From Candidatus Mcinerneyibacteriota bacterium (lineage in GTDB: Bacteria > AUK180 > JAQVHJ01): a stretch of 8,215 nt of DNA. Below are positions 1-6,493 of the stretch, in pieces. Every line of letters starts with the position of its first letter. Position 1 is the first letter of the stretch. Made by a program: the position numbers and the translations under genes. The notes beneath the pieces were generated by a model. The model did no database searches, was not told the DNA's origin, and saw nothing but the letters and a program-made list of their open reading frames with translations. Location of the stretch: assembly GCA_030630935.1 (NCBI GenBank), contig DAOVMD010000119.1, positions 1-8,215 of the forward strand, given 5' to 3'.

Positions 1-950
1 ATCCGTTTATTCTTTTCTATTACTTAATTTCCATTTTTTTATCGGTTCACAGATTAAAGAAGGTTATAAAGGATATTAATCCTGAGATTATTCATGCAAA
101 TTCAATCAGATCAGGAATAATTACTTCGCTTGCAAAAAAGAAAGAATTTTTAATTTGGCATATTAGAGATATATTAGGTTCAGGGTTAATGGGGTATATA
201 ATCCGGAAATTAGCGAGGAAGGCTGATAAGTTAGTTTATATCTCCGAATTTTTAAAGACAGAATTTTGTCTCAAGGATAATGAATTATTACAGAAATCTA
301 TAGTGGTTTATAACGGAATCGATTTCACCAAGATTGATGCAGCTACTAATCTTGAACATTTTAGAGAAGAATTCAGATTAAATAATGGATCTTGGCCTTT
401 GATCGGGTGTATAGGTTATATTGCTCCATTAAAAGGCCAGGAAGAATTTATTCGTGCTGCATCTCAAATTATTAGGAAATACCCCGGTGCAAAATTTTTT
501 ATTGCCGGTGATGTGATTTTTAGGCAGAAGAACCAGAGGTATTTTAAGAGATTGAAGAAGTTGATAGACCATGACCCGGAACTCCGAATGAATGTTTTTT
601 GGACAGGATTTTATAATGATATTTATTTATTAATAAAGTCTATGGATCTGATTATTCAACCATCCTGGATTGAAGGCTGGGGAAGAACGATTTGTGAAGG
701 ATTTGCATGTGGAATTCCTGTGGTTTGTTCAAAAGTCGGTGGCATCCCGGAAATTGTTAAATATGGAACAAATCGTTTTTTAGTTAATTCTCAAAATGTT
801 AAAGAGATATTAAACAAAACAATAGATATTCTTGAGAATCTAGACTTAATAAAGAAATATATTATAGAAAATCAAGAGTATGTCAAGCAAAAATTTACTT
901 TAAATAATTATACTAATAACATAATAGGAGTTTATGATGAAAGCGATTAA
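1..950 (+). CDS. GT4-family glycosyltransferase, 5'-truncated by the window edge
   Basis: Retaining GT-B glycosyltransferase that would transfer a sugar from a nucleotide donor to a growing surface glycan at the cytoplasmic membrane face. The frame is open from base 3 with no stop, so the ATG at 189 is internal: the codons before it encode GT4 N-domain sequence, including INPEIIHANS and the HIRD motif. 315 residues are visible; compared with usual GT4 length about 50-70 N-terminal residues are missing. The first visible residues (about 1-16, PFILFYYLISIFLSV) are very hydrophobic and may attach to the membrane. The C-domain has a donor-site lysine in APLKGQ (visible residue 144) and the E-x7-E motif EGWGRTICE (224 and 232), followed by GIPVV and GGIPEIV. 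The arginine usual in the GRL...KG donor loop is replaced by tyrosine (CIGYIAPLKG), a variation also met in other GT4 groups. The 3' end overlaps the next gene by 17 bp. Family is secure; donor and acceptor are unknown. Confidence 0.9.
   Translation, partial: PFILFYYLISIFLSVHRLKKVIKDINPEIIHANSIRSGIITSLAKKKEFLIWHIRDILGSGLMGYIIRKLARKADKLVYISEFLKTEFCLKDNELLQKSIVVYNGIDFTKIDAATNLEHFREEFRLNNGSWPLIGCIGYIAPLKGQEEFIRAASQIIRKYPGAKFFIAGDVIFRQKNQRYFKRLKKLIDHDPELRMNVFWTGFYNDIYLLIKSMDLIIQPSWIEGWGRTICEGFACGIPVVCSKVGGIPEIVKYGTNRFLVNSQNVKEILNKTIDILENLDLIKKYIIENQEYVKQKFTLNNYTNNIIGVYDESD
926..930 (+). promoter_or_regulatory. Shine-Dalgarno AGGAG for the second glycosyltransferase
   Basis: AGGAG lies inside the end of the upstream glycosyltransferase gene, 3 nt before the ATG at 934 and 6 nt before a second in-frame ATG at 937. 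Normal spacing favours 937 as the real initiation codon; the two choices differ by one methionine. Position inside the upstream coding sequence implies translational coupling. Confidence 0.6.
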
Positions 951-2127
951 AGAATTAATTATATCAACACACAATCCAGTTATTAAAGGTGGAGTTTTAA
1001 AAATGATGTTATTTATTGGAGATAATCCCCCTGATAATAGCTTTCAAACTAAATATTATTATCCGTCTCACTCAATTTTAGATTTGTTTAAATTTAAAGT
1101 AGTTTCAGAGGAATTATCCGGACAGAAAGCATTGAAATATTTTACTTTTCCATATATAGAATTTTTGCAATATTTATTTCCAGCCCTTTATATGAAAAAA
1201 TTTGATTCTCAAGCCATTTATTTCGGAGTTGGAGGTACTGCTCTTTCAGCTTTACTATTATATTTTAAAAGTTCAAAATATCTAATTTGGATTGCGACAA
1301 CTTATAAATCAGAATTTAAAACCCAGAAAAATATTTTTCGTAATTTCCAAATTTATTATCTATTAAATTTAATATTATATCCTTTAAATAGGTTCTTTGA
1401 AAAACTAGTTATAAAAAATGCAAAACGTATAATATCATTAAGCTCCTTTACCAAAGGGAATTTATTAAAGGAGTATAATATTTCCGAGGATAAAATAAAA
1501 ATTCTAAATATCCCAGTAGATACAGATTTCTTTTATTTTAAAAGAAGAATACTTCCGGAAAACAGACGGATAAAGATTCTAAATGTATGCAGGTTAGATG
1601 ACCCGAGAAAAAATTTAGTATTATTGGTAAATGCAGTGTGTGATCTTATTACAAGAGGATATAATATTGAATTGATTTTAGCAGGATCTTCAAAAAAGAA
1701 AAAGATGAAAACATTAAAAAAAGCACTTCAAAAAATTCGTGGATATTACCGATTAGAAACAAGTGAAAGATATGTTGTCACAAATGAACTATATCAGGAC
1801 GCTGATTTATTCGTTTTAACTTCAAGGCAAGAAGGTCTGGGGATAGTTATATTAGAAGCGATGTCATCGGGAATTCCTGTAATTTCAACAAAGTGCGGTG
1901 GTCCCGAAGAAATTATTATTAATAAAGAGAATGGTATATTGATAATGAATGAATCGAAAGAGGAACTTATTAATGCTATTATATCATTAATAACGAATAG
2001 GGATTTGTATAATAAATTATCTATTGAGGGAAGAAATACAATAGAAAAAAAGTTTTCCCCTGAAGTTTTAGTGAAGCAACTAAAACAAATTTATCAAGAA
2101 GAATATCCTGAATTAATAAAGGAATAG
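934..2127 (+). CDS. GT4-family glycosyltransferase
   Basis: GT-B fold glycosyltransferase of 397 residues, a full length for GT4, presumably adding one sugar to the same glycan as its neighbours. The N-domain begins with a beta strand and glycine loop (ELIISTHNP then IKGG), which supports the start at 934/937 over a later ATG pair at 1003. The middle shows AKRIISLSSFTKGNL, a typical end-of-N-domain signature. The C-domain carries the donor-binding arginine and lysine in CRLDDPRKN (R220, K226) and the E-x7-E motif EGLGIVILE (E300, E308), followed by GIPVIS and CGGPEEI. No signal peptide; moderately hydrophobic stretches occur near residues 147-160 (YYLLNLILYPL). It overlaps the upstream gene by 17 bp and ends 7 bp before the amidotransferase. 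The gene is clearly more AT-rich than its neighbours, which suggests a separate acquisition history. Family is secure, sugar specificity unknown. Confidence 0.92.
   Translation: MMKAIKELIISTHNPVIKGGVLKMMLFIGDNPPDNSFQTKYYYPSHSILDLFKFKVVSEELSGQKALKYFTFPYIEFLQYLFPALYMKKFDSQAIYFGVGGTALSALLLYFKSSKYLIWIATTYKSEFKTQKNIFRNFQIYYLLNLILYPLNRFFEKLVIKNAKRIISLSSFTKGNLLKEYNISEDKIKILNIPVDTDFFYFKRRILPENRRIKILNVCRLDDPRKNLVLLVNAVCDLITRGYNIELILAGSSKKKKMKTLKKALQKIRGYYRLETSERYVVTNELYQDADLFVLTSRQEGLGIVILEAMSSGIPVISTKCGGPEEIIINKENGILIMNESKEELINAIISLITNRDLYNKLSIEGRNTIEKKFSPEVLVKQLKQIYQEEYPELIKE
2118..2123 (+). promoter_or_regulatory. Shine-Dalgarno AAAGGA for the asparagine synthase-like gene
   Basis: AAAGGA lies at the end of the upstream glycosyltransferase gene, 11 nt before the ATG at 2135. 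The spacing is long, but this start is fixed independently by the catalytic Cys2, which must become the N-terminal residue of the mature glutaminase. Confidence 0.45.
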
Positions 2128-2134
2128 ATTTTCA

Positions 2135-4009
2135 ATGTGCGGAATTTTTGGTTTCATAGATAAGACCGGTCATGGGGTAAATAAAGAGACACTCAAGAGT
2201 ATGGGTGATTCAATAGTTCATCGCGGTCCTGATGATGAAGGTTTTTATATATATAACAATATCGGTTTGGGAATGAGGAGATTGAGTATAATAGATCTTA
2301 CAACCGGTCATCAACCCCTCTACAACGAGAATAAAGATATCATCGTGATTCTCAATGGAGAGATTTATAATTACAAAAGAATTAAAGATAATATTCTTAC
2401 TGGCGAGCATAATTTCAGAACCAGTTCGGATGTAGAAGTTATAATTCATCTGTATGAAGAGAAGGGTATAGATTTTTTAAATGATTTAAATGGTATGTTT
2501 GGTTTCAGTCTACTTGACCTTAGGAAGCGGAAGTTATATATTATCAGGGATCGACTGGGTATTAAACCTGTTTATTATTATGAAGATAAAAACCACTTTA
2601 TTTGGGCATCAGAGATTAAGGCAATTCTGAGTTCAGGTTTAGATATTGATAAAACAATTGATTATGAGGCATTATATTATTTTTTAAATATGGAATATTT
2701 CCCCGGGTATAAGACTACGTTCTCAAGAATAAAAAAACTAGCTCCCGGACATTATATTGAGATTGATATCGATTCCGGTAAACAAATTTTCAAACGATAT
2801 TGGGATGCCGAATTTAATAAAAACTCGGATAACTTAGATTTCAATTCTGCTCTTGAAAGGTTTGGTGAGTTACTTCGCGATGCTGTTTCACTCAGGATGA
2901 TTTCAGATGTACCATTCGGCTGTTTTTTAAGCGGCGGAATAGATTCTTCTGTAATTTCGGCATTGATGAGCGAAATTACGAGCTCGGAAATAAAAACTTT
3001 CTCACTTGGTTTTGGTACTACAAAAGAGCTCAAGTGGTTTGATGAACTTGAGTACTCTGATATTGTTGCTGAGCATATTAAGTCCCATCATAGTTCCTGG
3101 ATAATAAAAGGCAGTGAAGTTCGAGATGCTCTTGATAAAATTCTCTGGCATTTTGATGAGCCTTTTGGGCGCGGGTTCCATACTTATTTTGTTTCTAAAA
3201 TGTCAAAGGAACATGTGACAGTTGCTTTATCCGGTTTAGGTGCTGATGAGATACTTACCGGTTATGAGAAACATATGAAGATGAGGAATTTCAAATATAT
3301 AACGATGTTTCCTGAGTTTATGTCTCAACTTCCATTATCAATATTACATAAAATAACAAAAAATAAAAAAATACAAAAACTAAAGGCAATTCTTACAAGA
3401 GATATGCATAGAAGATATATTGGTTGGATGCAGGTTCTTCGAGAGGATATGCTGAATGAAATTATAACGAAGCAATTTAAAGATAAAGTATCAGAGGATG
3501 TTATAAACTATTTTCAAAGTCAATGGCCGCTCTCAGGATTGAGTGAAAATGACTCCATCTCATATCTCGAGTTAAAGACGACCATGGTTGATGATTTCCT
3601 TAATTACACAGATAAAACTTCCATGGCTCATTCCTTAGAGGTTCGTGTGCCCTTTCTTGATCATAGATTAGTAGAGTTTGTTCTCGGGCTGCCATTTAAT
3701 TTCAAGAATAAGGGTAACAATGCAAAATATATACTTAAGAAGATGTCAGAGAAACTTCTCCCCGATGAAATTATCTACCGTAAAAAGCACCCGTTCTTCT
3801 TACCATTAACGGTTTGGATTAAAGATGACTTTAAAGATTTAATCAAGGATACTTTTAATAGTAGCTTTATAGAAAATAACCCATTGTTTAATCAAGCAGG
3901 TTTAAATAATTTGCTGAATGACCATATCTCCAATAACCGGGATCGTTCCAGGGAGATTTGGTTATCTTTTATTACTATTCGATGGTTAGAGAATAATATA
4001 AATAATTGA
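2135..4009 (+). CDS. asnB: Asparagine synthase (glutamine-hydrolysing)-like amidotransferase
   Basis: Two-domain class II amidotransferase, 624 residues. The N-terminal glutaminase (about 1-200) starts MCGIFG; Cys2 would be the nucleophile after Met removal. HRGPD (29-33), R49, NGEIYN (74-79) and D99 match the glutamine site. The C-terminal synthetase (about 240-600) has the ATP PP-loop SGGIDSS (266-272), SGLGADE (366-372) and DKTSMAHSLEVRVPFLDH (493-510). It would hydrolyse glutamine, channel ammonia, and amidate a carboxylate activated as an adenylate. In housekeeping enzymes the acceptor is aspartate. In O-antigen and exopolysaccharide clusters, members of this family are associated with amidating other carboxylates such as uronic acids, and that fits this glycan context better. 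The synthetase motifs differ in wording from textbook AsnB (SGLGADE rather than SGEGSDE). It sits 7 bp after one gene and 9 bp before the next. Family secure; the true acceptor is inferred only. Confidence 0.93.
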   Translation: MCGIFGFIDKTGHGVNKETLKSMGDSIVHRGPDDEGFYIYNNIGLGMRRLSIIDLTTGHQPLYNENKDIIVILNGEIYNYKRIKDNILTGEHNFRTSSDVEVIIHLYEEKGIDFLNDLNGMFGFSLLDLRKRKLYIIRDRLGIKPVYYYEDKNHFIWASEIKAILSSGLDIDKTIDYEALYYFLNMEYFPGYKTTFSRIKKLAPGHYIEIDIDSGKQIFKRYWDAEFNKNSDNLDFNSALERFGELLRDAVSLRMISDVPFGCFLSGGIDSSVISALMSEITSSEIKTFSLGFGTTKELKWFDELEYSDIVAEHIKSHHSSWIIKGSEVRDALDKILWHFDEPFGRGFHTYFVSKMSKEHVTVALSGLGADEILTGYEKHMKMRNFKYITMFPEFMSQLPLSILHKITKNKKIQKLKAILTRDMHRRYIGWMQVLREDMLNEIITKQFKDKVSEDVINYFQSQWPLSGLSENDSISYLELKTTMVDDFLNYTDKTSMAHSLEVRVPFLDHRLVEFVLGLPFNFKNKGNNAKYILKKMSEKLLPDEIIYRKKHPFFLPLTVWIKDDFKDLIKDTFNSSFIENNPLFNQAGLNNLLNDHISNNRDRSREIWLSFITIRWLENNINN

Positions 4010-4018: not shown

Positions 4019-5023
4019 ATGAGTGTAAAGAAAATTAAAGATGAAAAAATTCTAATATTAGGCGGGAGCGGTTTTATAGGAAGTAACCTTGTAAATTACT
4101 TAATAGAAAATAATGTTAAGCATATCACAGTAGTAACCGAGAAGATAGATGAAAGGGTTTCATATAACCTTGGAGACTTGAAAGATAAGATTAGGGTTAT
4201 TGAAGCGGATATCCGTTATGAAAAAGAGATAGAAAAATTAGTGAAGGATCATACCCTAATCTTTAATTTTGCGGCTCAATCAGGGGCAGTTAACAGTACA
4301 GAAAAACCGTTCTTGAATCTTGATATCAATGGAAAAGGTGTTCTTAACTTATTGAATGCTTGCAGGAATAATAATACATCTGCAAAAGTTATCTTTCTCT
4401 CTTCAAGATTAGTTTATGGAATTGTAGATAGAATTCCCGTGAAGGAAAGCCAACCCCTTAATCCCGGAAATATTTATTCTATACATAAAATTTTAGGTGA
4501 GTATTACATGCAGCTTTATGCAAAGTTATACGGGATAAAAACAATTATTCTTCGTCTTACAAACCCCTATGGACCTCGACAACCGTTCTGGCAAAGTGAA
4601 TATGGAATTATTAATTATTTTATATATCTTGCAATGAAGGATGAAGAATTGAAAATATTTGGTGATGGAAAGCAGCTCCGGGATTACATTTATATTGATG
4701 ATTTGACCAAGGTTTTAATTACAATTGCCTGCGCAAATTATAAACCGGGAGCGATTTTCAATTTGGGTTCTGGTAAAGGAGTGAAGTTTATTGATATGGC
4801 AAGAGCTGTATGTAAAATAATCGGTCGGGGTAGAGTGAAAAAAGTTCCCTGGCCAAAATTATATAAGAAGGTTGAGACAGGAGATTTTGTTTCAGATATT
4901 TCAAAAATTAAAAATTCATTTTCCTGGATTCCTGAGGTAGACCTGGAACCCGGGATTAAGAAGACTGTTGATTTCATTAAGAATCATCCTTTATTTATTG
5001 AACGATTAAAAGGTGAGCTCTAA
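4019..5023 (+). CDS. NAD(P)-dependent nucleotide-sugar epimerase/dehydratase (extended SDR)
   Basis: Cytoplasmic extended short-chain dehydrogenase/reductase, 334 residues, normal for this family; it likely epimerises or dehydrates an NDP-sugar for the glycan built by the neighbouring transferases. The N-terminal Rossmann fold has GGSGFIG (15-21), D64 after the third strand, and NFAAQSG (83-89). The catalytic set is present: S129 in FLSSRLVYG, and Y153 and K157 in YSIHK. The substrate domain has NPYGPRQPFW, IFGDGKQLRDYIYIDD and a C-terminal GDFVSD...SWIP signature common to nucleotide-sugar epimerases. Oddity: the acidic residue that usually ends strand 2 and holds the NAD ribose is Thr40 followed by Glu41 (VVTEKID), so cofactor preference is uncertain. 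It follows the amidotransferase by 9 bp and precedes the radical SAM gene by 12 bp. GalE-type 4-epimerase, UDP-uronate epimerase and NDP-sugar dehydratase remain possible; sequence reading alone cannot choose between them. Confidence 0.9.
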   Translation: MSVKKIKDEKILILGGSGFIGSNLVNYLIENNVKHITVVTEKIDERVSYNLGDLKDKIRVIEADIRYEKEIEKLVKDHTLIFNFAAQSGAVNSTEKPFLNLDINGKGVLNLLNACRNNNTSAKVIFLSSRLVYGIVDRIPVKESQPLNPGNIYSIHKILGEYYMQLYAKLYGIKTIILRLTNPYGPRQPFWQSEYGIINYFIYLAMKDEELKIFGDGKQLRDYIYIDDLTKVLITIACANYKPGAIFNLGSGKGVKFIDMARAVCKIIGRGRVKKVPWPKLYKKVETGDFVSDISKIKNSFSWIPEVDLEPGIKKTVDFIKNHPLFIERLKGEL

Positions 5024-5035: not shown

Positions 5036-6493
5036 ATGAGAATATTGTTTTTAAATCCGCCATTTCTTTATAAGTTTTCGAGAGAGCAGCGTTCTCCGGC
5101 TGTTACCAAGAGCGGAACTATTTATTATCCCATGTGGTTAGCCTATGCTGCGGGGTACAGTGAACAGAATGGCCATGAGATATTTTTAATTGATTCACCT
5201 GCGGAAGATTTAGGATTTAAGGAGATTAAGGATAGGTTAAATAAAAATGATTTCATACCAAATCTTGCCGTACTTGCAACCAGTACACCAAGTATTTATG
5301 AAGATATTAAAACTTCAGAATGGCTAAAACAGACTTATTCAGGTGTGAAAGTAATTTTAGTTGGTACTCATCCAACATCATTGCCGCTCGAAACATTTGC
5401 GATATCGGACCAGATCGATTTCATTGCATTACGAGAATATGATGAGACTATCGTTGAATTAGCGAATAACCTCGAGAATAAAATCCCTCTTGATAACATA
5501 AAAGGTCTTGTATTTAAAAAGGGAGGAGAGATTATCAATACTGGTTTAAGAGATTATATTGAGGACCTGGATAAGCTGCCTTTTGTTACGGGGGTTTATA
5601 AAAGATTTCTTGATTATAAAAATTATTTTTACTCTGCAAATCTTTTTCCGGTAATCACAATAATTACCGGTCGAGGTTGTCCTTTTCAATGTGAATACTG
5701 TTTATATCCTCAGACCATGCTTGGCAATAGATTTCGGAAAAGGTCTCTTAAGAATGTTGTTGAAGAAGTTAAATATATCAAGGAACAATTTCCTAAAGTA
5801 CGTGAGATTTTTTTTGAGGATGATACACTTACTGTTGATAAGGAACGAGTAATCAGGTTTTGTAATTTGATAATTAAGAATAAATTAAAGATAAAATGGT
5901 CAACCAATTCCCGTGCTCAGGTTGATCTTGATACACTTAAATTAATGAAGCGCGCCGGCTGCAGACTTTTATGTGTCGGGTATGAGAGCGGGAACCAGGA
6001 GATCCTTGATAACTTAAATAAGAAGATTACACTCGATGAAGAATTGCAATTTTCAAAAGCGGCAAAGCGTGCCGGGATAAAAATTCACGGTTGTTTTTTA
6101 TTCGGGTATAAAGGTGAGACAAAAGAAACAATTGAAAAAACAATCAATTGGGCAATTCAATTAAATGCTAATACTGCGCAGTTTTTCCCACTAATGGTTT
6201 ACCCTGGAACAAAGGCATATACCTGGGCTGAGTCAAGAAACCTGATAAGAACAAAAAACTATCGGCACTGGTTAACCGATACCGGGCTTCATAATACCAT
6301 TCTTGATAGTGAACATTTTACCGGTGAAGAGCTGGTTAAATATTGTGATCTCGCCAGGAAAAGGTTCTACTTAAGACCTTCATATATTATCAAGAAGATC
6401 TTTGAAGGAGTTTTTCACCCTAAAGAAGGGATTCGGTTAACAAAAGCATTTTTTCGATTCATTAAGTATCTATTAGGTGGTTCAGATGTCTAA
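5036..6493 (+). CDS. Radical SAM protein with B12-binding-like domain, HpnJ-like
   Basis: Cytoplasmic iron-sulfur enzyme of 485 residues. The N-terminal 150 or so residues resemble a cobalamin-binding Rossmann domain (NPP at 7-9, YYPMWL at 30-35, TSTPS at 82-86, GTHPTS at 110-115); the classic DxHxxG lower-ligand motif is not seen, as in several other members of this class. The radical SAM core carries C215-x3-C219-x2-C222 in GRGCPFQCEYC for the 4Fe-4S cluster, EDDT (261-264), and GYESGNQ (315-321). The C-terminus (RKRFYLRPSYI onwards) resembles the tail of hopanoid-type members. The string of motifs YPMWL, TSTPS, LPFV..VYKR, TGRGC, CLYPQT and VGYESGNQ recalls HpnJ, which acts on the sugar head group of bacteriohopanetetrol; this is from memory, not an alignment. 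Here it lies 12 bp after a sugar-nucleotide enzyme and overlaps a glycosyltransferase by 8 bp, so a sugar or glycolipid substrate is inferred. Methylation or carbon-skeleton rearrangement are both possible. Confidence 0.9.
   Translation: MRILFLNPPFLYKFSREQRSPAVTKSGTIYYPMWLAYAAGYSEQNGHEIFLIDSPAEDLGFKEIKDRLNKNDFIPNLAVLATSTPSIYEDIKTSEWLKQTYSGVKVILVGTHPTSLPLETFAISDQIDFIALREYDETIVELANNLENKIPLDNIKGLVFKKGGEIINTGLRDYIEDLDKLPFVTGVYKRFLDYKNYFYSANLFPVITIITGRGCPFQCEYCLYPQTMLGNRFRKRSLKNVVEEVKYIKEQFPKVREIFFEDDTLTVDKERVIRFCNLIIKNKLKIKWSTNSRAQVDLDTLKLMKRAGCRLLCVGYESGNQEILDNLNKKITLDEELQFSKAAKRAGIKIHGCFLFGYKGETKETIEKTINWAIQLNANTAQFFPLMVYPGTKAYTWAESRNLIRTKNYRHWLTDTGLHNTILDSEHFTGEELVKYCDLARKRFYLRPSYIIKKIFEGVFHPKEGIRLTKAFFRFIKYLLGGSDV
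6475..6480 (+). promoter_or_regulatory. Shine-Dalgarno AGGTGG for the GT2-GT4 fusion gene
   Basis: AGGTGG lies within the last codons of the radical SAM gene, 5 nt upstream of the ATG at 6486. It supports that ATG, which overlaps the upstream stop by 8 bp, as the true start. Confidence 0.6.

Follow-up and report, generated by a model that had tools for sequence, protein, structure and literature searches.

The 8,215-nt stretch of DNA analyzed here, which we call the window (the entire contig G000:C185, 1-8215), encodes within a glycan operon a B12-binding/radical SAM protein whose nearest characterized family, as supported by profile and tree, is HpnJ; by its sequence the protein is a member of a separate clade (clade B) and not HpnJ itself. 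HpnJ forms a cyclitol ether from lipid-linked glucosamine (PMC12583986). We tentatively propose, at a little less than an even chance, that the window protein contracts the ring of a sugar linked to a membrane lipid, or rearranges the skeleton of that sugar in a similar way. A preliminary description of this DNA had likened the protein to HpnJ from the series of motifs along it and had suggested a relative acting on another sugar or glycolipid, possibly by ring contraction or C-methylation. That observation is borne out by our analysis, and the interpretation, which is partly supported, appears broadly right.

The radical SAM open reading frame was confirmed as a genuine gene (Table 1). Its product has the architecture of the B12-binding/radical SAM superfamily, with a B12 domain followed by a core that carries the CX3CX2C motif, here GCPFQCEYC. 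In the alignment the three cysteines of the motif are invariant, and the P225 and Q226 that follow are kept in at least 90% of sequences. An AlphaFold model computed from an input of 44 relatives, with rows from plasmid records left out (pLDDT 94.8, pTM 0.93), is predicted to have the fold of B12-type radical SAM enzymes, a fold that does not by itself choose the reaction. The structural matches of the model were led by AprD4, followed by MgmA (Z 31.4) and then by CysS, OxsB and TsrM.

Table 1. Genes of the window and features of the radical SAM protein (positions are those of the window).
Feature	Position	Strand	Details
GT4 glycosyltransferase, cut by contig start	3..950	+	
GT4 glycosyltransferase	934..2127	+	
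AsnB-type glutamine-hydrolysing amidotransferase, N-terminal Cys2	2135..4009	+	TIGR01536 470 bits (cut-off 267)
Extended SDR (NAD-dependent epimerase/dehydratase family)	4019..5023	+	RmlB-like 163 bits, under cut-off 365
HpnJ-sister B12-binding/radical SAM protein	5036..6493	+	485 aa; ATG start, TAA stop
B12-binding domain, residues 21-142	5096..5461	+	Pfam PF02310, 37 bits (cut-off 32.1)
Radical SAM core, residues 209-373	5660..6154	+	Pfam PF04055, 87.5 bits
CX3CX2C [4Fe-4S]/SAM motif C215/C219/C222, then HpnJ-group signature P225-Q226	5678..5701	+	
GT2 fused via membrane helices to GT4 domain, cut by contig end	6486..8213	+	

The HpnJ-like motif series noted in the preliminary description is matched by the profile scores. 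Among NCBIfam families, HpnJ (TIGR03471) was the best by far, at 405 bits (E 3.5e-121), with residues 1-479 of 485 aligned to positions 1-467 of the 472 in the profile; this is about twice the score of the second profile, BchE (191 bits). However, 405 bits lies below the HpnJ equivalog cut-off of 577.6 bits, and the window protein reaches the cut-off of no NCBIfam family. When the HpnJ profile was run over 386 genomes, six proteins scored 746-805 bits, the next scored 461 and the window protein 405. The window protein shares with HpnJ the same full-length layout of B12-binding and radical SAM domains, the CX3CX2C motif and the PQ signature, but is only 34-40% identical to it; identity to the annotated HpnJs on Mycetohabitans plasmids is 36%, and in the one Mycetohabitans HpnJ neighborhood inspected, hpnI and hpnK lie on its flanks. 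BchE resembles the window protein as a non-methylase of the same superfamily; however, the score falls far below the BchE cut-off (TIGR02026, 481 bits) and no photosynthesis genes accompany the protein in the window. A scan of viral sequences found no relatives.

In phylogenetic trees the window protein falls within a supported clade of 33 members, clade B (UFBoot/SH-aLRT 100/99), and outside the clade of true HpnJs (100/100). These two and a third clade, clade C (100/99), form a group that excludes further B12-type paralogues (100/97), and the same grouping was found in two other trees (SH-aLRT 96-97); the order of branching among the three has a support of only 88/76. BchE, AprD4 and MgmA lie outside this group in two trees, though on long branches. 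The window protein is thus placed beside HpnJ and not far off among unrelated methyltransferases. Sixteen positions show conservation across HpnJ, clade B and clade C that does not extend to the outgroup (R19, P85, D90, K98, P205, P225, Q226, T264, N291, R310, F339, H351, G352, G360, Y389 and P448), and all are present in the window protein, which favors a shared chemistry. Clade B also has an N-terminal signature of its own, S15-R16-x-x-R19-S20-P21 ... T28-x-Y30, which is clade-wide and at which HpnJ differs. This signature favors a different substrate, and the reaction may differ too.

These comparisons bear on the alternative that the enzyme is a methylcobalamin-dependent C-methyltransferase whose target is an unactivated carbon in a sugar of the glycan. 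Cobalamin-dependent radical SAM enzymes most often catalyze methylation (PMC13142503), the predicted fold resembles those of the methylases TsrM, CysS, TokK and MgmA, and a clade-B locus in Lawsonia has several methyltransferase genes as neighbors. However, the methylase profiles score far lower than HpnJ (PhpK, 134 bits against a cut-off of 600; HpnR, 86 against 650; KedN5, 58 against 700), and every residue specific to the HpnJ group is kept. We consider C-methylation unlikely, although it takes the largest share among the alternatives to ring contraction.

Could the protein instead be a plain HpnJ, with the other hopanoid genes in the missing part of the genome? HpnJ is the nearest characterized family and the genome is 80% complete. 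The preliminary description had seen no hopanoid gene in view, and indeed none lies within the window, where neither HpnI nor HpnK was found. Hopanoid genes just outside the window were sought at the level of the whole genome: at that completeness, we found no match to squalene-hopene cyclase or HpnK, and no HpnH that scored above its cut-off. Among the clade-B genomes in the tree, which are mostly more than 90% complete, squalene-hopene cyclase was present in 0 of 24, against 5 of 6 genomes with a true HpnJ (p 4e-5). The background rate of the cyclase in our sample is about 12%, and the comparison of clade B with that background (0/24 vs 46/362) is not significant (p 0.095); absence alone is therefore weak, and the contrast with the true-HpnJ genomes is the informative part. 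In addition, no hpnI neighbor was found in the clade-B loci. Together with the score under cut-off, the clear gap to the true HpnJs and the position outside their clade, the missing squalene-hopene cyclase and hpnK led us to reject HpnJ proper as the identity of the protein, and its being a plain HpnJ in an incomplete genome is highly improbable. As a separate observation, genome G067 (locus L090), listed as 99% complete, encodes a true HpnJ with a strong score (775 bits) but had no squalene-hopene cyclase that we could see.

In place of a hopanoid locus, the window holds an operon of the exopolysaccharide type. All of its genes lie on a single strand, in the order GT4, GT4, AsnB-type amidotransferase, SDR, radical SAM and GT2-GT4 fusion, and successive genes either overlap slightly or stand no more than 12 nt apart, in agreement with the glycosyltransferases, sugar-nucleotide enzyme and amidotransferase described previously. 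The probable start of the GT2-GT4 gene is the ATG at 6486 (the ORF list gives GTG 6477), so that its first 8 nt would coincide with the end of the radical SAM gene, stop codon included.

To this setting belongs a further alternative, that the enzyme deoxygenates a sugar in the manner of AprD4, as a radical 1,2-diol dehydratase, with the upstream SDR reducing the keto product. AprD4 acts on an aminosugar, and its complex with the aminosugar paromamine is the solved structure that best matches the full-length model (Z 37.8, 419 residues, rmsd 2.9); the SDR gene ends only 12 nt upstream of the radical SAM gene. AprD4 is active without cobalamin despite its B12-type domain, and such independence would suit a genome without visible B12 genes: no cobalamin riboswitch, CobA/BtuR or B12-binding_2 protein was found in the window's genome (80% complete), nor a B12-binding_2 protein in its family neighbor (72% complete). 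That absence also counts against the ring contraction proposed here. Across clade B, a B12-binding_2 protein occurs in 20 of 24 genomes, and the window protein may use cobalamin. Sequence comparison argues against the deoxygenase. Identity to AprD4 is 19%, the AprD4 profile (NF033070) gives 82 bits against a cut-off of 500, AprD4 carries CX3CX3C (GCPYPCRFYC) where the window protein has CX3CX2C, and in the trees AprD4 stands on its long branch outside the HpnJ group. The upstream SDR is also not conserved across clade B, and was rejected as an AprD4-style reductase partner. An AprD4-like reaction is, in our estimate, the least probable of the alternatives apart from plain HpnJ.

The glycan context extends to most relatives of the window protein, which supports the earlier suggestion of an HpnJ relative at work on another sugar or glycolipid. 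Of the 33 clade-B loci, 19 have a glycosyltransferase or polyprenyl-phosphate sugar transferase no more than three genes away; such genes make up 19 of 64 immediate neighbors and 6 of 123 at a distance of 4-6. A pooled Pfam scan of 129 clade-B neighbors ranked GT2 first (18), followed by Bac_transf (8), GT1/GT4 (8), DUF362 (6) and GT9 (5). The remaining 14 loci have no glycosyltransferase within three genes; among them are Zixibacteria loci in which the gene stands beside geranylgeranyl-reductase-like and ThiF-like genes. The link of clade B to glycan genes is strong but not universal.

One partner recurs. A GT2 homologous to that of the window (36-44% identity) is present in 11 clade-B loci, mostly directly downstream of the radical SAM gene (it is the second gene in one locus, and the third and on the opposite strand in another), and has hydrophobic C-terminal stretches that resemble membrane helices. 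Four loci carry it as a fusion with a polyprenyl-phosphate sugar transferase. Pairwise distances of the GT2 and radical SAM proteins correlate (Mantel r 0.84, 0 of 5000 permutations); the loci compared were those selected for carrying the GT2, and shared ancestry of the genomes adds to the correlation. HpnI was rejected as the identity of this GT2, which gave no match to that family and scored best to EpsD and MftF, both well under cut-off. The window's genome has a second clade-B paralogue, on contig C143 (L021:4920-6347), which is 41% identical to the window protein and has a relative of 69% identity in a genome of the same family (G001). A GT4 gene precedes it with a 4-nt overlap, and a GT2 and a WbaP-like polyprenyl-phosphate sugar transferase, named by sequence inspection and similarity to Pfam-identified genes, lie nearby.

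With a conserved GT2 as partner, the substrate is more likely to be a glycan attached to the membrane than a free sugar nucleotide. In hopanoid synthesis HpnI adds a sugar to the lipid and HpnJ remodels that sugar (PMC12583986), and the pairing of GT2 with the clade-B enzyme parallels that of HpnI with HpnJ. These observations suggest a model in which the partner GT2 would put a sugar on a membrane-lipid carrier, in other loci together with the polyprenyl-phosphate sugar transferase; the carrier would most likely be an undecaprenyl-type or lipid A-type glycolipid en route to a surface polysaccharide. By analogy with HpnJ, a 5′-deoxyadenosyl radical would abstract a ring hydrogen of the pyranose, the bond to the ring oxygen would be cleaved and a C-C bond closed, giving a cyclopentitol held through an ether bond. 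The lipid-linked substrate, the use of cobalamin and the ring contraction are inferred. A further precedent is calditol synthase (Cds) of the Sulfolobales, which is required for the glucose head group of a membrane lipid to become a cyclopentyl ring by contraction (PMC9385802). We compared it by description; the kind of chemistry proposed is the same, on a lipid-linked sugar, but its substrates are archaeal tetraether lipids and not a surface glycan, and no HpnJ-profile match at E 1e-70 was found in Sulfolobus acidocaldarius. Ring contraction or rearrangement is rated the most likely reaction because of the shared residues and the precedents of HpnJ and calditol synthase.

Some neighborhoods are of a different kind. 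In one subgroup of clade B (L008, L067, L075 and L080), DUF362-ferredoxin and GT9 genes lie just upstream of the radical SAM gene, and L075 has in addition a lipid A-type acyltransferase, a hydrolase and two further B12-type radical SAM genes. Locus L079, the closest relative of the window protein in one tree, has the order GT4, GT4, DUF362-ferredoxin, radical SAM, GT2 and sugar transferase. In all five of these loci the DUF362 protein, with its 4Fe-4S ferredoxin domains, is encoded directly upstream, which makes it a candidate for supplying electrons to the radical SAM enzyme. That some clade-B members adjoin DUF362-ferredoxin, acyltransferase and other B12-type radical SAM genes, and not sugar-nucleotide enzymes, would also fit a different reaction, for example epimerization, dehydrogenation or cross-linking of the glycan or of the lipid that carries it, and cobalamin-type radical SAM enzymes do catalyze varied ring-forming and rearranging reactions (PMC13142503). 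We regard this as unlikely, somewhat below C-methylation and above an AprD4-like deoxygenation.

Members of clade B were found in metagenome-assembled genomes labelled Nitrospirae, CSSED10-310, Zixibacteria and Diapherotrites and in genomes of many families, and this patchy distribution suggests transfer. A member with 49% identity to the window protein lies within a glycan gene cluster on a small plasmid of Lawsonia intracellularis (L107:7026-17215). Five methyltransferase genes, a SIS-domain gene, a HAD/GHMP kinase pair and GT2s surround it, and the set looks like a heptose-containing glycan cluster. A literature search, with most subscription journals outside its scope, found no account of HpnJ-like enzymes in polysaccharide loci or of the Lawsonia copy.

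Sugar-to-cyclopentitol ring contraction is already known from hopanoids and from the calditol lipids of archaea. Clade B, found in several bacterial phyla, in genomes without the hopanoid cyclase and in association with glycan assembly, would extend ring contraction, or another radical reaction, to surface polysaccharides or glycolipids. It would offer a way, open to testing, to unusual surface sugars, and perhaps more radical SAM enzymes that do not methylate, in a group where the use of cobalamin is poorly understood. With the conserved GT2 partner as a guide, a search for the substrate becomes practical. We would go further only with more doubt than attaches to the reaction itself: it is possible that a widespread, undescribed enzyme class makes carbocyclic (cyclopentitol) residues by contracting polyprenyl- or lipid-linked sugars. 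If so, some bacterial surface polysaccharides or glycolipids contain sugars with all-carbon rings.

Two further arrangements of related genes were seen. On contig C4 of the window's genome (L022:502-7845), three tandem B12-type radical SAM genes precede two genes resembling acyltransferases and one resembling GH3 (names assigned by eye), possibly a small biosynthetic cluster. In three loci of family f68 (L085, L096 and L097), a clade-C HpnJ-like gene is preceded by an SDR and overlaps by 4 nt the gene after it, which encodes a second, distant HpnJ-like radical SAM protein.
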